Positions 1,148 to 19,625 of a stretch of 34,293 bases of DNA are shown in pieces. A program made the position numbers and the translations under genes. The notes under the pieces were generated by a model. That model did not search any database, was not told where the DNA came from, and saw nothing but the letters and a program-made list of their open reading frames with translations. The DNA comes from Bacillota bacterium (lineage in GTDB: Bacteria > Bacillota > Dethiobacteria > DTU022 > UBA8154). Location of the stretch: the NCBI GenBank assembly GCA_029778075.1, contig JAKORA010000031.1, positions 1 through 34,293 on the forward strand. Direction: 5' to 3'. The number at the start of each line of letters is the position of its first letter. Position 1 is the stretch's first letter.

Positions 1148-3346
1148 GTGCAAAGAAGAAAATTATGTGTATGGGCGATCTGTATGTTTCTGCTTCTCGC
1201 CGCCGCGGCGGGGTGCAGCGGGGATCCCGGGCAACCGGAACATAGTACCGGAGTGGAGCAGGGCGGCAGTGAAGGAGAGGAACAAAATCCTCTGGAAGAA
1301 AAGGTGGCTCCGCCTCCGGAGCCAGCTCTTAAGTTTGCCGCTTATGAAGAGGTGCCGGTGAATTTTACCCCGGCAGTGCAGCCTTACGAAGTAGAGCCCG
1401 GGCTGGGTAATATCACTAACCGGGAGATGTTTGAGCTCTCCCCGGCGGCGGAGCGGCTGCTGGCGGAAAACAGCTTTGTGGTGGTGCCGAGCCAGCACCA
1501 CCGGGAGTTTTTCATGCTCTATGAGATGAACAGCTACAGGCCGGTGCCCAGCTTTATTACTACCGACTCCATGCTGCACAACTACCACCTCTTTTTCAGC
1601 CACCTGCTGCGGGTGATAGAAAAGGAAAAGCTGGCACCGGAGCTAAAAGAGCTTACCGCCTCCATGCTCTCCGCTTCTCAAAGGCAGTACGAGGCCCTTA
1701 AGGGCACCGGCTGGGAGAACGCCGCCAAACGGAATATGGGTTTCTTTGCCGTGGCCGGGAGGCTGCTTGATCCGAAGATTCCTGTTCCGGCGGAGGTGCG
1801 GGGGGTAGTGGGAGAGGAGCTTAAGCTGATCGAAAACCGCGCCGGCATCGAGGTTTCACCTTTAATGAACATGGGGCAGGAGCTTACGCCTCTGGATGCC
1901 CTGATGGAAGATTATTCCCAGTACATTCCCCGCGGGCACTATGATACTGACGAGCTGTTGCGGTCATATTTTAAGGCCATGATGTGGTGCGGGCGGATGA
2001 CCTTCCGGCTGAAGAGCGAGGATGAGACCCGCTCCGCGGTTTTGATGACGCTGGCTTTGGGCGAGGGCGACAGCCTTCAAAGATGGGATAGGATTTACCA
2101 GCCCACCTGCTTCTTTGTGGGGAAAAGCGATGACCTTTCCTACTGGCAGTACCGGGAACTGCTGGAGGAAATTTACGGTAAAGAGCTGAAGCTGGAGACG
2201 CTCTCCTCCGGCGGGGAAAAATGGGAGGCTTTTCTGGAGGCAGCGGCGGAGCTGGAGCCCCCGGTGATAAACTCTATCCCTATCTTTGAGGAAGCAATAC
2301 AGCCCGACCGCGAGGGGGAGATTAAAGGTTTCCGCTTTATGGGGCAGCGCTTTACCCTGGATGCCGCTATTTTCCAGCAGCTAATTTACCGCGCCGTCCA
2401 AGAAAACAGCGCGGGAGAGAGGAGAATGCTTCCCCGGGCGCTGGATATCCCCGCGGCCATGGGCTCCGCGGAAGCATACGCCATCCTGGAGGCCGAGGGG
2501 GAGACAGACTACGCGGGCTACCGCGAGAATATGGGCAAACTGCAGGAATTTATCGCCGGTCTGGACAAAGAGACCCGGGTGCAGAACCTCTACTGGAGCT
2601 GGCTTTACACCCTTGATACCCTGCTCGGGGAGAAGGGGGAGGGGTTCCCCTCCTTTATGCGCAACAAAGCCTGGACCAGGAAAGAGCTGAACACCTATCT
2701 GGGCAGCTGGACCGAGCTCAAGCATGATACCATCCTTTACGCCAAGCAGGTTTACGCGGAAATGGGCGGCGGCTGGGACGATGTGGACGACCGCGGCTAC
2801 GTGGAACCCAACCCGCACCTTTATGCCCGCCTGGCTGCGCTGGTGCGGATGACGCGGGAGGGGCTCGCCTCACGTGAGCTTTTAAACGACAGGGATCGGG
2901 AGAGCCTGGAGCGGATGGAGCAGTTGGCCCTCTCCTTGAAGACCATCTCGGAAAAAGAGCTGTCCGGAATCCCTCTTTCCGAAGAGGAATATGACCTGAT
3001 CCGCTCCTACGGCGGGCAGCTGGAGCATTTTTGGCTGGAGGCGCTGCGCGATACAGGGGTGGAGCACCGCTCCGCAATCGGTGATAATCCGGCGGCTCTG
3101 GTGGCCGACGTAGCTACCGATCCCAACGGCGCGGTGCTGGAGGAGGCTACAGGGCATATCTTTGAAATTTACGCTGTTGTGCCCGTTGACGGCACCCTGA
3201 GAATCGCCAAAGGCGGCGTCTTCTCCCACTATGAGTTTCTCTGGCCTATGGAGGACAGGTTAACGGACAGGAAATGGCACGCTATGCTGGATTCCGGCCA
3301 GGCGCCCCCCCTGGCCCGGTGGACGGAAACCTTTATCGCCCCGTGA
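1148..3346 (+). CDS. DUF3160-type lipoprotein
   Basis: GTG start preceded by AAGGAGG; lipoprotein signal (FLLLAAAAGC); overall resemblance to the DUF3160 family (FVVVPSQHHREFFMLYEMNSYRPVPSFITTDSMLHNYHLFF). Confidence 0.75.
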   Translation: MQRRKLCVWAICMFLLLAAAAGCSGDPGQPEHSTGVEQGGSEGEEQNPLEEKVAPPPEPALKFAAYEEVPVNFTPAVQPYEVEPGLGNITNREMFELSPAAERLLAENSFVVVPSQHHREFFMLYEMNSYRPVPSFITTDSMLHNYHLFFSHLLRVIEKEKLAPELKELTASMLSASQRQYEALKGTGWENAAKRNMGFFAVAGRLLDPKIPVPAEVRGVVGEELKLIENRAGIEVSPLMNMGQELTPLDALMEDYSQYIPRGHYDTDELLRSYFKAMMWCGRMTFRLKSEDETRSAVLMTLALGEGDSLQRWDRIYQPTCFFVGKSDDLSYWQYRELLEEIYGKELKLETLSSGGEKWEAFLEAAAELEPPVINSIPIFEEAIQPDREGEIKGFRFMGQRFTLDAAIFQQLIYRAVQENSAGERRMLPRALDIPAAMGSAEAYAILEAEGETDYAGYRENMGKLQEFIAGLDKETRVQNLYWSWLYTLDTLLGEKGEGFPSFMRNKAWTRKELNTYLGSWTELKHDTILYAKQVYAEMGGGWDDVDDRGYVEPNPHLYARLAALVRMTREGLASRELLNDRDRESLERMEQLALSLKTISEKELSGIPLSEEEYDLIRSYGGQLEHFWLEALRDTGVEHRSAIGDNPAALVADVATDPNGAVLEEATGHIFEIYAVVPVDGTLRIAKGGVFSHYEFLWPMEDRLTDRKWHAMLDSGQAPPLARWTETFIAP

Positions 3347-4968
3347 AATCGTTACGGCTGATACTGCTGGCCCTGCTGCTGGCCTCCGGGCTTGCGGGCT
3401 GCTCCGTCACCGGCCTGCAGCAACCCGCCGGCAGCAGGGTTTTCCCTGATATCGCCTCCTTTAGGGAAGCCCGCCTGAGGCTCCCGGAGAGACATGAGCC
3501 CATCTGCCTGGTGGCGGTGGGTGACATCATGCTCTCCCGGTACGTAGCCCAAAAGATCGAAGAGCATGGCGACCCGGGGCACCCCTTTGCCGGAGTTAAA
3601 TGGTTTATACAGGAGGCAGACCTGGCCTTCGGCAACCTGGAGGGGCCGCTGACTCCGGGGAGAGAGGTTAAAGTACACGAAATGCTCCTGCGGGCCGATC
3701 CCGCTATGGCTCCGGCCCTGAAGGAAGCCGGTTTCAATATCCTCTCCCTGGCCAACAACCATGTGCCGGATTTCGGTGCCCGGGGGATAAGGGACACCAT
3801 GCGTTATCTTGATAAAGCGGGGATCGGCTATGCCGGCGCCGGCAGAAATAAGCAAGAAGCCTATGCCCCCCGCTATATGGAGATAAAGGGTCAAAGGCTG
3901 GCTTTTTTGGCGTTCACCGACCCTGCCGTCATACCGGAGGCGTACAGCGCGGGCGACACCCCCGGCACCGCTGTCCTGGAACCGCAGGAAGTGGCCGCTG
4001 CCGTCAGTGAGGCTGCAGGCAACGCTGATTTCACGATAGTCTCTCTCCACGCCGGCACCGAGTACGCCGCCGAGCCGGATGATACCCAGGTGCGCTTTGC
4101 CCGCCTGGCTATCGATGCCGGAGCTGATCTGGTGCTGGGCAGCCACCCCCACGTAGTGCAAAAAGCCGAGGAGTACCGCGGAAAGTACATTTTTTACAGC
4201 CTGGGGAACTTCATCTTTGACCAGCTCTGGTCCCGGGAGACCAGGGAGAGCCTGGCCGTCAAGTTCTGGATCGGCAATGAGGGCGTAGAAAAAATGGAGT
4301 TTTTACCGGTCTATATAAGCAATGACGCCCGCCCGGTACCCCTAAGCGGCCGGTCGGGACGGGCAGTGGTGGAAAAACTGGGGCTGGAACTGGAGGAGGA
4401 CTCTGTTCCGGCCTGGGATAGTGAAAATGGAACTTTCACGACTAAAGAGCAGTATCTATTTACGTGCCAAAAAACTCTGCCGGAGTCAAGGCTGGCTCAG
4501 TACCGGCAGTTCGACATGGACAGCGACGGCCTCCCGGAATACTATACTCTGCGCAGCGGCATATTAACGGTCAGAAGCGGCTCCCGCCTTATCTGGCAAT
4601 CACCGGATGACTGGTGGGTAGACTATTTCTTCCTTGGTGACGCCGACAACGATGGTGCCCCGGAGCTCAACCTGCTGGTCTGGAAAGAGGGGAGCTTCGG
4701 TCCTCACAGGCCCTTTTGGGTGGAAGAAGATGATACCAGCGTTAAAAACCACCTGTTCGTCTTCAGGCTGGAGAAGGGCAGTTTTAAAGCGGTATGGCAG
4801 TCCTCCAATCTGGACTGCCCCATCTACCGGGCTGCTCTTGTAGATCTGGACGGCGACGGCGAAAACGAGCTGCTGGTTACCGAGGGAAGTTATACCGATC
4901 CCGCAACGCGGGAAATAACCCTCTGGAAATGGAGCGGCTGGGGCTTTTACCGGATTAACCTTAATTAA
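3343..4968 (+). CDS. CapA-family (PGA_cap) lipoprotein with C-terminal DxDxDG repeats
   Basis: GTG at 3343 overlaps the upstream TGA (GTGA) and opens a lipoprotein signal (VKSLRLILLALLLASGLAGC). CapA motifs are VAVGDIMLSRYV, NLEGPLT, LANNHVPDFG and GSHPHVVQ. The ORF-track start at 3274 lies inside the upstream gene and is less plausible. Confidence 0.85.
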   Translation: MKSLRLILLALLLASGLAGCSVTGLQQPAGSRVFPDIASFREARLRLPERHEPICLVAVGDIMLSRYVAQKIEEHGDPGHPFAGVKWFIQEADLAFGNLEGPLTPGREVKVHEMLLRADPAMAPALKEAGFNILSLANNHVPDFGARGIRDTMRYLDKAGIGYAGAGRNKQEAYAPRYMEIKGQRLAFLAFTDPAVIPEAYSAGDTPGTAVLEPQEVAAAVSEAAGNADFTIVSLHAGTEYAAEPDDTQVRFARLAIDAGADLVLGSHPHVVQKAEEYRGKYIFYSLGNFIFDQLWSRETRESLAVKFWIGNEGVEKMEFLPVYISNDARPVPLSGRSGRAVVEKLGLELEEDSVPAWDSENGTFTTKEQYLFTCQKTLPESRLAQYRQFDMDSDGLPEYYTLRSGILTVRSGSRLIWQSPDDWWVDYFFLGDADNDGAPELNLLVWKEGSFGPHRPFWVEEDDTSVKNHLFVFRLEKGSFKAVWQSSNLDCPIYRAALVDLDGDGENELLVTEGSYTDPATREITLWKWSGWGFYRINLN

Positions 4969-5113: not shown

Positions 5114-5803
5114 ATGGAAAAAATTAAAAGCACGGTACTGGAAGTTGTTTTCGCCGTTTTACCGGTGACTATTTTTGTTATTATTTTGCAAGTATTATTG
5201 CGATTGCCGCTCCAGGTTATGGCACAATTCTTGATTGGTGCAGCTATGGTTACTATTGGATTGGCTTTATTTTTGCTGGGTGTTCAGCTCGGCCTGCTTC
5301 AAGTTGGCGAAGCTGCCGGAGCGGCGCTGCCCAAAATAGGTAAAGTGTGGGTTTTAGTCTTTTTCGGTTTTCTTTTAGGTTTTGCGGTAACAGTGGCTGA
5401 GCCTGATGCCCTGGTGCTGGCAACGCAAGTTGATCTTGTTTCGGAAGGGGCTATCCCCAGAAGCATTTTAATGATCACCGTGGCTTTGGGGGTGGGCATC
5501 TTTGTGGGTTTGGCCATGTTGCGGGTTCTGCTTGGTATACCCTTGAAATACATTTTAATGGCAAGTTATGGCCTTGTGTTTCTCCTGGTTGCCTTTACGC
5601 CCGCTGAATTTGCCTCTCTCTCTATAGATTCCGGTGCTGTGACTACCGGACCTTTGTTAGTAGCTTTTATCATGGCTTTGGGTGTCGGGGTCGCTTCTGT
5701 GTTGGGCAGGAGAAGCGCTTCTGCTGACGGATTTGGGTTCGTCGCGTTGAGTGCTATTGGGCCTATTTTAGCCTTGTTGTTGCTGGGAGTGATTTACGGT
5801 TGA
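5114..5803 (+). CDS. DUF1538-type membrane protein, paralog 1
   Basis: Hydrophobic multi-TM protein with AEPDALVLATQVD and DSGAVTTGP motifs shared with the downstream paralog. Confidence 0.75.
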   Translation: MEKIKSTVLEVVFAVLPVTIFVIILQVLLRLPLQVMAQFLIGAAMVTIGLALFLLGVQLGLLQVGEAAGAALPKIGKVWVLVFFGFLLGFAVTVAEPDALVLATQVDLVSEGAIPRSILMITVALGVGIFVGLAMLRVLLGIPLKYILMASYGLVFLLVAFTPAEFASLSIDSGAVTTGPLLVAFIMALGVGVASVLGRRSASADGFGFVALSAIGPILALLLLGVIYG

Positions 5804-6558
5804 ACGGGATCCAGATCTTCACAGGTTTTGACCAGGTTTTGCTGGAAGTGGCTGCTGCCCTTCTCCCCCTCACCGTTATATATTTATTCCTACAAATTTG
5901 GCTGTTAAAATATCCAAAACTGAGGGTGCTTAATTCTTTAAAGGGTATATTTTTAACTTTTATAGGCCTGTCAATTTTTTTGCAGGGCGTTTATATTGGT
6001 TTTCTGCCGGCGGGCAAGATAATGGGGGAGATTATGGGCGGTTTATCTTACAACTGGGTGTTGATACCTATAGGCTTCATCCTGGGTTTTGTGGTTGCCT
6101 TTGCGGAGCCTTCAGTACGCGTGGCAAATTATGAGGTAGAGAAGGCGTCGGGAGGTTACATCTCGCAGCAAGTAATGCTCTACACGGTGTCCCTTGGAGT
6201 TGCCATCTCCATCGCATTGGCCATGTGGAGAATTCTAGCCGGTTTTCCCCTATGGTATTTCATCATTCCAGGCTATATAATGGCTTTTATCATGGCACAC
6301 TACTCTTCGCCCACCTTTGTGGCGGTAGCTTTCGATTCCGGAGCAGTGGCCACCGGACCGATGACCGTAACTTTTATCTTAACCGTGGCGATAGGTGTTG
6401 CCTCCGCTATAGAAGGTCGAAATCCCCTAACCGAAGGCTTTGGGATAGTAGCCCTTGTTTTTATTGCTCCGATTTTGACGGTTTTATTGCTGGGGCTGCT
6501 CTACCGCAGAAAGGAGAAGCAAAGTGAACGCGAACTTTCCGAGATATCCGAGATATAA
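5800..6558 (+). CDS. DUF1538-type membrane protein, paralog 2
   Basis: TTG start overlaps the upstream TGA (TTGA); shares AEPSVRVANYEVE and DSGAVATGP motifs with paralog 1. Confidence 0.75.
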   Translation: MNGIQIFTGFDQVLLEVAAALLPLTVIYLFLQIWLLKYPKLRVLNSLKGIFLTFIGLSIFLQGVYIGFLPAGKIMGEIMGGLSYNWVLIPIGFILGFVVAFAEPSVRVANYEVEKASGGYISQQVMLYTVSLGVAISIALAMWRILAGFPLWYFIIPGYIMAFIMAHYSSPTFVAVAFDSGAVATGPMTVTFILTVAIGVASAIEGRNPLTEGFGIVALVFIAPILTVLLLGLLYRRKEKQSERELSEISEI

Positions 6559-7273
6559 GTTGCTCATAACCATTGTAAATTATGGTATGGCCCGCAAAGC
6601 AGTTAAAGCTTCAAAAGAGGCCGGAGCCGAGGGGGGGACCACTATTATCGGGAAAGGCACCGCAAGCCATGACATAACAAGTTTTCTGGGGATTCCCCTT
6701 GAGCCGGAAAAAGAAATAATTCTGATCCTGGCAACTGATGATAAGATAGACAATATTTTACAGGCGGTCATCTCTACCGCTAAACTGAATAAGCCCGGTC
6801 ACGGGATTGCTTTTATTGTTGATATTAACAAGGTGGCGGGAATCCGTCATCTGCACATGCCTGCAGAGACATCTGATCGCACTTTGGGAGGGAATACAAT
6901 GGCCGATAGCAGCGGGGTTTTATATGATTTAATCGTAACCATAGTAAATAAAGGTGAGGCGGAAACAGTAGTCGAGGCCTCGAAAAAGGCCGGTGCTGAA
7001 GGCGGAACAATACTATTTGGGCGCGGGACGGGAATTCATGAGCATGCCAAATTATTCGGCATCACCATAGAGCCGGAGAAAGAAATCATCCTGACTTTGA
7101 TTAACCGCCAAAAAAGCGGAGATGTCTTGAACGCTATTGTAAACGAAGCTGAGCTGAACAAGCCCGGAAAAGGAATTGCTTTTGTTTTAGAAGTGGATAA
7201 AGTCGCCGGTATCAATCACCCTATTAACAGGATGGCCAAGGAAGGGCTTCAAGGGATTAAACCATCGCTATAA
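6524..7273 (+). CDS. Tandem PII-like (GlnB/GlnK-fold) regulatory protein
   Basis: Two homologous halves offset about 123 aa (KLLITIVNYGMARKAVKASKEAGAEGGTTIIGKGT / DLIVTIVNKGEAETVVEASKKAGAEGGTILFGRGT), each ending in a PII B-loop-like segment (LNKPGHGIAFIVDINKVAGI / LNKPGKGIAFVLEVDKVAGI). Overlaps the upstream gene by 35 bp. Confidence 0.8.
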   Translation: MNANFPRYPRYKLLITIVNYGMARKAVKASKEAGAEGGTTIIGKGTASHDITSFLGIPLEPEKEIILILATDDKIDNILQAVISTAKLNKPGHGIAFIVDINKVAGIRHLHMPAETSDRTLGGNTMADSSGVLYDLIVTIVNKGEAETVVEASKKAGAEGGTILFGRGTGIHEHAKLFGITIEPEKEIILTLINRQKSGDVLNAIVNEAELNKPGKGIAFVLEVDKVAGINHPINRMAKEGLQGIKPSL

Positions 7274-11905: not shown

Positions 11906-12097
11906 ATGCATGACGAAGAGTATTTAACACCGGAAGATGCTTCCAGGTACCTGCGTCTTTCCCTGAGCAGCGTCTACAGGCTTATCCGGCAAAGAGAGCT
12001 GGGTGCCTCCAGAGAAGGACGTTTCTGGAGGATCAGGCGCTCAGACCTGGAAGATTTTGCCGAGAATCTGGGAGAGAGGGAAGAATTCCCCGATTAA
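11906..12097 (+). CDS. Excisionase/MerR-like helix-turn-helix DNA-binding protein
   Basis: YLTPEDASRYLRLSLSSVYRLIRQRELGASREGRFWRIRRSDLEDF is a typical winged-HTH 'excisionase family' domain. The ATG at 11906 follows a ggaaag SD-like element and is preferred over the 11837 start. Confidence 0.8.
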   Translation: MHDEEYLTPEDASRYLRLSLSSVYRLIRQRELGASREGRFWRIRRSDLEDFAENLGEREEFPD

Positions 12098-12116
12098 TAA
12101 AAAGAGGAAGGGTAGT

Positions 12117-15100
12117 ATGGAAACGGTAGCGCAGAAATTTGTAGAAATGGCCAGGCTGGTAAATGAGCGGGCGGAAGGGAACATTACCCTTGAAGAGATG
12201 AAGCGGTTTGCCGACGGCCTGACAATCGTAGCCCCTACAGAAAATGCCCTGAAGGTGGCGGCCAACCGCTATTTCCGCCGTGACGAAGAAGGAAATATCT
12301 GTGAGGACTGGCACGGGATGCTGGAAAGAGTGGCCACGGATATTGCTACTGAAGAAGATGGAACAATAAACGAAACTCTGGCTTATGTTTTCCAGTGTCT
12401 CATGGAAGCAGGCCTTTTTTTCCCCAACAGTCCAACCCTGATGAATGCAGGGACCCCGGTGCAGCAGCTGCAGGCCTGTTTCGTCCTGCCCATCGATGAC
12501 TCCATGGAGAGCATTTTTGAAACCCTGAAGCACTCCGCCCTGATCCAAAAAAGCGGCGGCGGGGTGGGTTATTTTTTGGGCAAGATCCGTCAGAAAGGTG
12601 CCATCGTCCGTAGTACCGGTGGACAGGCCTCCGGTCCCCTTTCTTTTCTTTCCATCTACAATAAGGTCAGCGATGAAATACGCCAGGGGGGACGGAGACG
12701 CGGCGCCAGTTTGGCTACGCTGAACTATAATCATCCGGATATTATGGAATTTATCGATAGCAAACGCCGGGGAGGCGAGCTGAGCAATTTTAATATTTCT
12801 GTCCGCGTGGACAACAGGTTTATGGAGGCTGTGGAAAAAAACGAGGAGTATGACCTGGTGGATCCCCATACCGGCCGGCCTACAGGGCAAAAATTAAAAG
12901 CCGGCGATGTTTTTGCACGTATCTGCGAAAATGCACATCTAAACGGGGAGCCGGGCTTATTGTTCTACGATGCCATCAATGCGGAAAACCCGACACCTCA
13001 TTTAGGGGAAATCGAGGCTACTAATCCTTGTATTACAGGTGATATGCTTATATCGACGGACAGGGGCCTGGAAACCATGGAAGCGCTATACCGGCGGGGC
13101 GAGGCCATGATCCTTACGGACGATCGGGTTTTACGTGTAAAAAAACTGGAACCGGCCTGTGTTTCTATAGGAAATAATGCTCTATTAATAGTTGAGGTTG
13201 CTCCTATATATAGCAGGGGTTTTGCCACCTTGCGCCCCGCAGTTAAGTTCTGGCGTCAGGGTGTGAAGCCTGTCTTTCGCTTAAAAACAAGGTCCGGATA
13301 TTCTATCAAGGCTACAGCAGAACACAATATTTTTACGGAAAAAGGCTGGAGGCCTTTAAAGGACCTGAAAACAGGGGACAAAGTTTGTATACAGGCCGGG
13401 CAGGGATTTTTTAACAAGGACAGCACGCTTCCTGTGAACATGGAAAATGAAATAAAAGGGAAAAATGGGAGAATTTATAGCTTTAATTTTCCTACCAGAT
13501 GGAGTAAAGAGTTGGGAGAAGTCCTGGGCTGGCTGGTGGGAGACGGCTGGCTCCGCCTGGCTCCGGGCGAGGAAAGGGTAGGTTTTTGTTTTGGAAAGGC
13601 AGATAGCCGCATTTTTGCTTATTTGAAAAAAATTTTAGACAACTATTACGGTAAAGCGGTTAAGGAGGTAAGCAGAGAAAACGGGTGTATCCATCTGAGT
13701 TATCACTCCCGTTTTTTTGCCCGTTTTTTTGCCTCTCTTGGTGTAAAACCTGTTTCTGCCGGCGAAAAAAGAGTTCCCCCTTCATTGTTTACAGCCACCG
13801 AAGAGGCTGTGGCCGGTTTTTTAAGGGGTCTTTTCAGCGCTGATGGGACGGCAAGATTTTCTTCAGGTAAAAGCGCTTATGTCCGTCTAACCTCCCGATC
13901 ACTTAAACTTTTACAGGAGGTTCAACTTTTGCTGTTAAACCTTGGTATTAAGTGTTCTTTATACGACAGGCACAGGAAGCCCCGCTATACTTTTCCTTAT
14001 GTTTCCCAAGAGGGTGCGCAAAGGAGATATTATTCGGATGGAATACTATACGAACTCCAGATTTCCAGGGATAGCCTGCCTCTTTTCTTGAATAAGGTTG
14101 GCTTTTTATGTGGGAAACATGCCCAGACAATTTCCTGTTTTAATAACCAGAGTTTTTATACGGATCGTTTTATGGAAGAAGTTGTAGAAATTATACCCCT
14201 GGGGGAAGAAATGGTTTATGACCTGGAAGAGCCCGTAACAAACTCCTTTATAGCTAACGGCATCGTTGTTCATAATTGCGGGGAACAGCCCCTTTTGCCT
14301 TATGAGAGCTGTAATTTGGGGAGCATTAACCTGGCGCGGATGCTTAAAAAAGAGGGGGAGCGTTTTGTTCCTGACTGGGAAAAGATCCGTTATGTTGCAC
14401 AAATCGCCACCATTTTTCTGGACAGGGTTATCGATCGCAACAGATCTCCTCTTCCCCAGATTGATAAAGTCATGCAGGGAAACCGCAAAATCGGGCTGGG
14501 GATTATGGGGCTGGCCCAGTACCTGATCCGGCAGGGCATTCCTTATAACTCTGAAGAAGGTTTCCGGGCCGCGGAGATGGTGATGAAAGAGATAGCAGTG
14601 CAATCCAAAATCACCTCCCGGGAGCTTGCCGCTGAAAAGGGTCCATTTCCAAATTATAAAGGCTCTATCTGGGATAAACTGGGGCTGCCCCAGCGCAACG
14701 CTACCACAACGACTATTGCGCCAACCGGATCACTTTCTATTTTTGCCGATGCCTCACCCAGCGCCGAGCCCCTTTTTGGTGTCGGCTTTGCCCGCAATAT
14801 TATGGATGGACGCTTTATCCAGGTAGATGCCGTCTTTGAAGAAATGTGGCGGGAACGCTTTGGCGAAGAGCTTCCCCAATTCATTAAGGAACGTATTGGC
14901 GAAAAAGGCCCCGAAGGTATTAGTGAAATTGCGGAGATCCCGGAAGAGCTGCGCTCCCTTTTTCTATGCGCACATGATATTTCTCCCCTTGATCACATTC
15001 GCATGCAGCTGGTTTTGCAAAAGTGGGTGGATAACGCTGTGTCGAAGACGATCAACGCACCCAACCATGCCACGATTGAAGATTGCCGGGAGGCTTTCCT

Positions 15101-15701
15101 CCAGGCCTGGCGCGGCGGAGCCAAGGGCATTACTTACTACCGCGACGGCTCCAGGGAAAGCCAGGTAATTACTTCAACGATTGATAAGAAAAAGGCGGAC
15201 GGGGTTGCCAAGGGAGAACGAGGAGTCGTGCCGCGGGAGCGTCCGGAAACCACTTTTGGCCAAACGACACGCAAGCGTATCGGCTTTTGCGGGAAACTAT
15301 ATGTGACGGTAAACAAAGAGTTGAGGGAAGACGGGACAGAGCAGGTTTGCGAAGTTTTTACCTCCGTAGGAGAGGAAGGATGCCCCCCTCTGTCCAATGC
15401 CCTGGCCAAAATTATCTCTATTTCTATCAGGGCGGGTGTAGATATTGATGAAATTGTAGAACAGTTGCGGGAGGAAAAATGCCCCTCCTGTTTAATGCAC
15501 CCTGAGACCACCGTGTTGTCCTGCACAGATTTTATCGGGCAGGAGCTGGCCAAGGCCGCCAAAGGAAAAGTGGCTTACCGTCTTAATGCACCGGGGGGGC
15601 CCAAAAATATACGCATCTGCAGTGTATGTAAAATCGGCAACATGATTCCCGATGCCAAGTGCAGTTACTGCGACTACTGCGGATTCAGCACCTGCGGCTA
15701 A
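12117..15701 (+). CDS. nrdJ: Adenosylcobalamin-dependent (class II) ribonucleotide reductase, interrupted by an intein
   Basis: RNR motifs (FFPNSPTLMNAGTP, GGGVGYFLGKIR, NPC//GEQPLLPYESCNLGSINLAR, TTTIAPTGSLSIFADASPSAEP) and a C-terminal Cys motif (CSYCDYCGFSTCG). The ATG at 12117 follows gaggaag; the track start at 12003 is an upstream extension. Confidence 0.95.
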   Translation: METVAQKFVEMARLVNERAEGNITLEEMKRFADGLTIVAPTENALKVAANRYFRRDEEGNICEDWHGMLERVATDIATEEDGTINETLAYVFQCLMEAGLFFPNSPTLMNAGTPVQQLQACFVLPIDDSMESIFETLKHSALIQKSGGGVGYFLGKIRQKGAIVRSTGGQASGPLSFLSIYNKVSDEIRQGGRRRGASLATLNYNHPDIMEFIDSKRRGGELSNFNISVRVDNRFMEAVEKNEEYDLVDPHTGRPTGQKLKAGDVFARICENAHLNGEPGLLFYDAINAENPTPHLGEIEATNPCITGDMLISTDRGLETMEALYRRGEAMILTDDRVLRVKKLEPACVSIGNNALLIVEVAPIYSRGFATLRPAVKFWRQGVKPVFRLKTRSGYSIKATAEHNIFTEKGWRPLKDLKTGDKVCIQAGQGFFNKDSTLPVNMENEIKGKNGRIYSFNFPTRWSKELGEVLGWLVGDGWLRLAPGEERVGFCFGKADSRIFAYLKKILDNYYGKAVKEVSRENGCIHLSYHSRFFARFFASLGVKPVSAGEKRVPPSLFTATEEAVAGFLRGLFSADGTARFSSGKSAYVRLTSRSLKLLQEVQLLLLNLGIKCSLYDRHRKPRYTFPYVSQEGAQRRYYSDGILYELQISRDSLPLFLNKVGFLCGKHAQTISCFNNQSFYTDRFMEEVVEIIPLGEEMVYDLEEPVTNSFIANGIVVHNCGEQPLLPYESCNLGSINLARMLKKEGERFVPDWEKIRYVAQIATIFLDRVIDRNRSPLPQIDKVMQGNRKIGLGIMGLAQYLIRQGIPYNSEEGFRAAEMVMKEIAVQSKITSRELAAEKGPFPNYKGSIWDKLGLPQRNATTTTIAPTGSLSIFADASPSAEPLFGVGFARNIMDGRFIQVDAVFEEMWRERFGEELPQFIKERIGEKGPEGISEIAEIPEELRSLFLCAHDISPLDHIRMQLVLQKWVDNAVSKTINAPNHATIEDCREAFLQAWRGGAKGITYYRDGSRESQVITSTIDKKKADGVAKGERGVVPRERPETTFGQTTRKRIGFCGKLYVTVNKELREDGTEQVCEVFTSVGEEGCPPLSNALAKIISISIRAGVDIDEIVEQLREEKCPSCLMHPETTVLSCTDFIGQELAKAAKGKVAYRLNAPGGPKNIRICSVCKIGNMIPDAKCSYCDYCGFSTCG
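13029..14276 (+). other. Intein (416 aa) with LAGLIDADG/DOD homing endonuclease inside NrdJ
   Basis: Begins C-ITGDMLISTDRGLETMEAL (block A), TAEHNIFTEKGW (block B), DOD motifs LGWLVGDGWL and LRGLFSADGTA, and ends VYDLEEPVTNSFIANGIVVHN followed by extein Cys (blocks F/G). Confidence 0.95.
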
Positions 15702-18004: not shown

Positions 18005-18201
18005 ATGAAGGAATATAAAAGGGAATATCCCTTGTTTTCTTTATGTGGTCTTAACTGTGGGCTTTGCCCAAGATATCAAAGCGAGGGAACATCAAGGTGT
18101 CCCGAATTTATAAATCGGAAGTCAAAGCGCCGGCAGATATTCAGCTGTCTTTTGTCCAATTTGCGCAGGCAATGGTGGATATGTACGACATAGCAGGCTA
18201 G
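18005..18201 (+). pseudogene. Truncated DUF3795-like cysteine-rich protein
   Basis: MKEYKREYPLFSLCGLNCGLCPRYQSEGTSRCP is a DUF3795-like N-terminus; similarity stops after SRCP. A different frame then reads RIYKSEVKAPADIQLSFVQFAQAMVDMYDIAG* to 18201. Confidence 0.55.
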
Positions 18202-19625
18202 TCAGTTCCTTCAATCTGACTGAAACCACATGTAACGATCACGGCCTCCTCCTCATCGAGGAAGCGCTTCGAATTGCTTGTGAAAAGGCTCTCATTGACT
18301 CTTTCAAATGTCAGATTTTCATTATTTGAGAGAACTGTGAACCAGAAATCGCATTCCGCATTTGGAGAACGTCCCGTTAATGTCAATATGTAGCGGTATG
18401 TGATGCCATTTTCAGCAGTATAAGTTCCGTCGGCGTTTTGTGTGTAAGAAATCCATTGGCCAGTTTCCCTGGGCTGTATCTTAATTGTCCCATTCTTAAA
18501 CACAAGCTCGCCGGATAAAATAAGCTCTTCTTGCATAAATTTACGCTTTTCTGCAATCAGTTTCCCGTTTTTCATATTCAGCACATAGTCGTAGTTCATG
18601 CGGTCAGACAACTCATAGCTTACACCTCCGGCATAATCATAGATAATAATGCGGTTATCTATGATTCCAGAGCCAATGCTGATTGTCGAACAAAGCTCTG
18701 GTTTTCCATCTCCTGTCAGATCACAGAAATAGACATTCCATATCGGCATACCTGTGTAAAGCGTAATTATTTCTTTGTCAGTTACTGCTTCGAGCTTCTC
18801 GGCATGACAACGGAAGGTTACCTCCGGAAATGCATCAAGATTTATTTCACGCACGCCGTCCCATATCATTTCATCACCGTGGAGATTGTCAAACCATTTT
18901 GTTGCAGTTGATTTAATTGAATCATCTTCAACCAGACTAAACACCCACCGAATGTTTGTATCATCAGAGCCGGGATCGTCCTTTTCTGAAGCGTCATAAT
19001 ATCCGTAAGTAAGATATACGTCCCCGTTTTTCTGCAAAAGCAAATAGTAGAATATCGTGTCTGGCAAGTCAGTTACCAACAAACGCCAGGCTTTTTGATT
19101 GTTCCTGCGCAGACTGCTGGCAAAGCCGTGAACTCCTAAAAAGTATCGATCAAAATTGTCTTTTGTTAACATAAATTCTTCAAATGTGCCTACATTCAAC
19201 CAGTTGGTGGAACTCTTGTCCTCTAATACCAATAACTCTTTTTCATTTGTGACGCAATACTTTGGTGCAGTTTCTGTTGTATAACTGAAGGCATATATGC
19301 CTGACTCAAAAATGATATCTCCTACTTTATAGTATTTTCCAAAAGGATCTATTCTTTTAGAATCAGAATCTTTTGGATTTGTCAAAAAGCAGACCGCAAC
19401 CACGATGCAGGTAGCCACGGCGGCAATAATAATCCAAAATGCCGGCTTCTTATAGTTCATCACATGTTTCACCCCTTCTTTCACGCCCGCCTCACCGAAG
19501 GCCAGCGGGCAGGCCGCAATGCGTCGGCGGTGAACGCTGCAATTGTGAATTGCAGTGGAATACGCCCGTAGAGCCTCTCTGTCCATCTTCCTCACGACCT
19601 TCTCATCACAGGCGGCCTCCGGCAC
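18198..19625 (-). pseudogene. C-terminal fragment of a BlaR1/M56-family sensor with extracytoplasmic domain
   Basis: Starts mid-domain at PEAACDEKVVRKMDREALRAYSTAIHNCSVHRRRIAACPLAFGEAGVKEGVKHVMNYKKPAFWIIIAAVATC, the usual tail of M56 peptidase domains; no HExxH or N-terminal TM region. The remaining ORF is open for 475 aa, so it may still be expressed. Confidence 0.6.

Follow-up and report, generated by a model that had tools for sequence, protein, structure and literature searches.

A DUF1538 membrane protein pair and its tandem PII-like neighbour: a probable cation/proton antiporter with a proposed PII-like control subunit

The DNA analysed was a 34,293-nt stretch of a Bacillota bacterium (assembly GCA_029778075.1, contig JAKORA010000031.1, positions 1 to 34,293, forward strand), and this entire stretch is called the window. 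The operon at 5114-7273 consisted of three open reading frames, which encode two membrane proteins (A and B) and a PII-like protein (Table 1). An earlier note had described two DUF1538 paralogs joined by a TTGA overlap and followed, with a 35-bp overlap, by a protein of two PII-like domains. The coordinates and the Pfam matches agreed with this description. Both membrane proteins exceeded the gathering cut-off of PF07556 (22.6 bits). The third protein matched PF00543 in two stretches above its cut-off of 25 bits, and each domain also exceeded this value in the genome scan. The AEP and DSGAV(T/A)TGP motifs lay where the note had placed them and were conserved across the DUF1538 family. A plausible ribosome-binding site, AAAGGAG, was read from the sequence 7 bases upstream of the PII gene's GTG start codon. 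The overlaps were conserved among relatives selected by the PII protein: the two membrane genes overlapped by 4 bp in 29/52 pairs, and the membrane-gene/PII junction was overlapping in 45/60. The genome scan of the window's assembly, which is about 87% complete, found no other DUF1538, no other PII domain and no AmtB. Within this assembly, the lack of AmtB and of another PII fits the PII-like protein being a dedicated partner. No riboswitch, including the ion- and nucleotide-sensing types, was found with Rfam upstream of the operon in the window and 29 related loci, so that no clue to the substrate was obtained from this side.

Table 1. Positions of the operon's genes, overlaps and motifs in the window
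Feature	Position	Strand	Basis
A, first DUF1538 membrane protein, 229 aa	5114..5803	+	PF07556, 225 bits, E 6e-67
AEP motif of A (A95-E96-P97)	5396..5404	+	E96 is E in 94-100%, eight classes
DSGAVTTGP motif of A (D172-P180)	5627..5653	+	D172 conserved in 91-100%
TTGA stop/start overlap of A and B, 4 bp	5800..5803	+	Sequence
B, second DUF1538 membrane protein, 252 aa, TTG start	5800..6558	+	PF07556, 236 bits, E 3e-70
AEP motif of B	6103..6111	+	Sequence and family conservation
DSGAVATGP motif of B	6334..6360	+	Sequence and family conservation
Tandem PII-like protein, 249 aa, GTG start, 35-bp overlap with B	6524..7273	+	PF00543, 52 bits, two stretches
First PII domain, GKGTASHD ... LEPEKE; signature usually degenerate in the family	6548..6859	+	Motif conservation
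Second PII domain, single-domain signature GRGTGIHE ... IEPEKE kept	6920..7231	+	Motif conservation
GRGTGIHE signature, T-loop base of second PII domain	7019..7042	+	Motif conservation

A and B were 40% identical over 215 aa. They were thus two co-encoded paralogous subunits, as in a UmpAB-type antiporter, and DUF1538 pairs or fusions were present in most loci surveyed. The earlier note had proposed a channel or transporter with no substrate evident from the neighbours, and had named an established function of DUF1538 as something that would speak against its reading. Such a function has been published: a DUF1538 pair, UmpAB of Halomonas zhaodongensis, was reported as a Na+(Li+,K+)/H+ antiporter. 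UmpA and UmpB formed a heterodimer in co-immunoprecipitation, the antiport was pH-dependent, and activity was observed only when both subunits were expressed; the antiport evidence came from one group, which expressed the genes heterologously in a single E. coli strain (PMC5484666). DUF1538 was also listed independently among pH-adaptation families (PMC13255231). With the UmpAB function, the channel or transporter of the earlier note is better described as a probable cation/proton antiporter.

The window pair resembled UmpAB in having two adjacent DUF1538 paralogs of about 230-250 aa with the same AEP and D-x-GG-V motifs. Glu96, Arg137 and Asp172 (A numbering) were conserved in 71-100% of sequences, mostly more than 90%, in each of the eight classes, the UmpA/UmpB clade among them. 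These residues, common to the window pair and the UmpA/UmpB-clade proteins, supported the antiporter reading. However, A and B scored only 98-111 bits against the UmpA and UmpB equivalog models (NF041627 and NF041628), of which the cut-offs are 490 and 500 bits; A reached 108 bits with NF041627. None of the genomes searched exceeded the UmpA cut-off of 490 bits either, and the best Pseudomonadota relative reached 416 bits. The Halomonas umpAB locus itself was thus not among them, and the linkage described below for this phylum was that of UmpAB relatives. A tree of 124 DUF1538 domains, rooted only at the midpoint, contained three strongly supported groups. The first-gene or N-half domains, with A, and the second-gene or C-half domains, with B, formed two of them. 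The third was a Pseudomonadota branch that held umpA and umpB, which in this tree seem to go back to a duplication of their own. A and B were therefore not placed as orthologs of UmpA and UmpB. The separate, strongly supported branches suggested that, with a midpoint root, paired DUF1538 paralogs apparently arose more than once. By their sequences, A and B are classed as members of the DUF1538 superfamily and not as UmpA/UmpB equivalogs, and the scores meant that the substrate of the window pair was extrapolated over a large distance.

This distance and the strongly supported separation from the UmpAB clade left room for another explanation, in which DUF1538 pairs move another substrate (a metabolite, another ion, or a nitrogen or carbon compound) under PII control and the UmpAB antiport is secondary or clade-specific. 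The best-known PII partners, Amt, Nrt, Urt and SbtA, are nutrient transporters (PMC10710835). In addition, the screening approach used for UmpAB, in E. coli KNabc, has led to salt tolerance or antiport being assigned to many families that are unrelated to one another, one of them a dehalogenase (PMC13284043). However, the conserved acidic and basic residues were the same in both clades, and the listing of DUF1538 as a pH-adaptation family came from an unrelated analysis. No consistent metabolic neighbour gene was noticed when the neighbours were viewed unsystematically. We consider another substrate unlikely, though it deserves real weight.

A fused DUF1538 homologue (L136) was modelled from a 15-row alignment, with a pLDDT of 81.6 and a pTM of 0.80. 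The predicted helices were broken exactly at AEP (helices 79-95 and 98-111) and at D-x-GG-V-x-T (helices 169-179 and 185-199), and such breaks were present in both halves. Many ion-coupled transporters have interrupted helices that bear acidic residues. When single DUF1538 proteins were aligned together with fused proteins, all of them fell on the first half, and no internal inverted repeat was detected in a profile comparison of the halves. No sequence relative of DUF1538 was found in the PDB. The L136 model gave no Foldseek match at E <= 0.001, and the matches listed had TM-scores near 0.1-0.2, which is noise. Since no solved relative was found, no mechanism could be taken over from a solved transporter.

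The linkage of DUF1538 with PII-like genes, which the earlier note had proposed to survey, was examined in three samples. DUF1538 alone was used in the window's phylum, where 139/399 genomes were positive and 94 of the 96 fetched loci were testable. The UmpA model was used in Pseudomonadota, with 125/399 positive genomes and 39 testable loci among 40 fetched. The third sample was the reverse: the window PII protein was the only query, and 80 loci were fetched. The DUF1538 loci fetched were the better-scoring ones, and the sample stands for these rather than for the weakest members. In the window's phylum, a PII-like domain was located within 1 kb of DUF1538 in 93/94 loci, always on the same strand, downstream in 92, and with a median gap of 55 bp. 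In Pseudomonadota, the same distance held in 37/39 loci and in 15/15 of a second draw, giving 52/54, mostly from the UmpAB clade; a PII-like gene was thus downstream in nearly all UmpAB-clade relatives examined. The linkage was conserved in 145/148 testable DUF1538 loci overall. Conversely, DUF1538 was beside 79/80 of the PII-selected loci, and the sole exception starts at a contig end. The PII-selected loci came from Bacillota, Actinomycetota, Balneolota, Chloroflexota, methanogens and Pseudomonadota. The region within 1 kb of one PII gene makes up about 0.1% of a 2.4-Mb genome, and linkage by chance was therefore excluded.

Several loci departed from the common arrangement. L086, L259 and L274 carried DUF1538 with no PII-like gene within reach. 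The order was reversed in four loci of Marinilactibacillus and Alkalibacterium (L183, L188, L193 and L202), where a tandem PII was upstream of a fused DUF1538. In the Alphaproteobacteria Methylocystis and Chelativorans (L309 and L311), the DUF1538-DUF1538-PII cassette was located on mobilizable or conjugative plasmids, and the first DUF1538 gene of the Chelativorans plasmid was annotated at only 273 bp. Annotation pipelines labelled the plasmid cassettes as DUF1538-DUF1538-"P-II family nitrogen regulator". This label and the Pfam P-II match would suit an ordinary nitrogen-status PII (GlnB/GlnK) that is merely co-transcribed and acts on nitrogen enzymes. However, such a protein would not be expected beside DUF1538 in 79 of 80 relatives. 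The window protein reached only 23-28 bits against GlnB/GlnK equivalog cut-offs of 181-202. Its T-loop was shorter in an alignment with GlnB-1 of 3o8w, and no conserved tyrosine of the modifiable Tyr51 type was present in the T-loop of the aligned relatives. With AmtB absent from the scanned assembly as well, this candidate was largely refuted by the linkage and was rejected as very improbable. This also meant that 2-oxoglutarate sensing cannot be assumed.

The linkage extended to a gene fusion. In one Pseudomonadota genome (L296, 3494-5443, minus strand), a single open frame of 650 aa contained two DUF1538 domains followed by a PII domain at the C terminus. Pfam gave 438 bits for the two DUF1538 domains and 31.6 bits for P-II (cut-off 25), and all of them were above their cut-offs. 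The three-part fusion was present in this genome only, and the other long frames were separate genes; elsewhere, only one in-frame stop divided the frame of a fused DUF1538 from that of the PII protein. A fusion that occurs in nature is a classic, though indirect, sign that the parts associate physically. The core of the earlier note's idea, a heteromer with a dedicated PII partner, was strongly supported by the two linkage counts and this fusion.

Domain architectures were counted in 176 loci (L035-L210). The most frequent form paired two single DUF1538 genes with one PII domain (58/176), followed by a fused DUF1538 with a tandem PII (45/176). The window type, two single DUF1538 genes with a tandem PII, was present in 22/176 loci, and two single DUF1538 genes with two PII genes were present in 15/176; the remainder were rarer forms. 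Most relatives had one PII domain rather than two. A rule that a fused DUF1538 always goes with a tandem PII was true for the 45 loci of the window's phylum but was rejected, since the Pseudomonadota fusions had one, two or three PII domains. Chains of three PII domains were observed in L241 (Desulfonatronovibrio, 2300-4745 and 1300-2400, minus strand) and in L325 (3638-4810, plus strand). They adjoined long fused DUF1538 proteins, with a 739-aa frame in L241, and are possibly single-chain PII trimers.

The tandem PII protein was examined for its fold and motifs. Its two halves were 54% identical over 99 aa. An AlphaFold model (pTM 0.66) contained two beta-alpha-beta-beta-alpha-beta domains, the ferredoxin-like double beta-alpha-beta fold of PII proteins. 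The best PDB matches of this model in Foldseek were GlnK/PII chains with target TM-scores of about 0.7-0.8, including the GlnK of the AmtB complex 2ns1, and the T-loops of the model were of low confidence. Motif conservation differed between the domains. In single and second PII domains, the R was kept in 93-100% and the RGxG glycine in 90-97%. In the first domains of tandems, the signature was mostly lost, with R in 29-60%, the RGxG glycine in 20-25% and H in 17-20%. Single-domain PII proteins outside the UmpAB clade kept RG-x-G-x-H-E and EPEKE (R 100%, E/D 99%, K 96%). The UmpAB-clade PII proteins kept the RG-x-G core, but not the His-Glu and EPEKE parts. Since only the second domain of tandems keeps the complete signature, the first domain is probably a scaffold. 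This asymmetry, seen in the sequences, suggested that one domain of the tandem may sense or dock and that the other may serve as the scaffold.

These motifs bore on a further explanation, that the PII-like protein serves the membrane complex only in assembly or stability and has no sensing role. The near-obligate linkage, the overlap and the fused form would all suit such a subunit. So would the fact that the T-loop has lost the canonical PII modification site and that several ligand residues are gone. However, the R-G-x-G ... H-E ... EPEKE signature was near-invariant in single-domain forms outside the UmpAB clade, as in a functional loop. UmpA and UmpB alone gave antiport in E. coli, so that no third protein was needed for assembly there (PMC5484666), although the host's own GlnB/GlnK might in principle have stood in for it. 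The activity of UmpA and UmpB alone made modulation a likelier role for the PII protein than that of an essential subunit. We regard a purely structural role as rather improbable.

Few signalling proteins in nature are as widespread as the PII proteins. According to a 2023 review, they directly control Amt, Nrt, Urt and SbtA, and their use is apparently confined to transporters that work as trimers (PMC10710835). The window operon resembled GlnK-AmtB in that a PII-fold protein is encoded beside its membrane partner. However, AmtB belongs to an unrelated transporter family, as no DUF1538 relative was present in the PDB. The window PII protein itself differed from GlnK in the lack of a conserved uridylylation tyrosine, the shorter T-loop and the tandem form. 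It resembled SbtB, a PII-like protein dedicated to a single neighbouring secondary transporter, but SbtA comes from another family and transports bicarbonate as a trimer (PMC10710835). The solved PII-transporter complexes contain trimeric transporters (PMC10710835), whereas UmpAB was described as a heterodimer. The terms "PII" and "P-II" were absent from the main text of the UmpAB paper (PMC5484666), and published UmpAB has two components, whereas the window operon has three. No report linking PII with DUF1538 was found among openly available journal papers, and the association is apparently unreported.

Taken with the linkage and the fusion, which were observed directly, the best explanation was that the antiporter has a dedicated PII-like partner, which binds it and tunes its activity according to a ligand; we infer the binding, the ligand and the direction of control. 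The operon thus probably encodes a heteromeric, UmpAB-like DUF1538 cation/proton antiporter and, as a control subunit dedicated to it, the PII-like protein. A and B would pair up in the membrane, and the interrupted helices with AEP and D-x-GG-V-x-T would probably form the ion site. The pair would exchange Na+ (or Li+/K+) for H+, as taken from the literature on one DUF1538 pair. The short T-loop region of the cytosolic PII-like protein, RGxG-I-H-E ... IEPEKE, would be where it docks on the pair, and the protein might then set a more or less active state according to a small ligand, by analogy with GlnK/AmtB and SbtB/SbtA. In tandem forms, the second domain, with the complete signature, would do this while the first would probably act as a scaffold.

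We lean, with somewhat less confidence, towards a broader statement that the UmpAB-type DUF1538 antiporters are a general three-component class, that a PII-like subfamily directly controls cation/proton exchange, and that the tandems combine a sensing and a degenerate domain. The results pointed to the PII-accompanied DUF1538 pump as a widespread and apparently undescribed control of ion exchange. Should DUF1538 antiporters prove to be a PII target, PII control would extend from nitrogen and carbon uptake to ion and pH homeostasis, across many bacterial phyla and methanogens. The window operon would then belong to the first PII-regulated cation/proton antiporter, and the sole published study of a DUF1538 antiporter would have covered two of three components.

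Two observations were made elsewhere in the window. The 475-aa open reading frame at 18198-19625 (minus strand) had no Pfam match. The large chain of ribonucleotide reductase at 12003-15701 (plus strand) contained an intein with Intein_splicing and LAGLIDADG domains at about residues 406-758.
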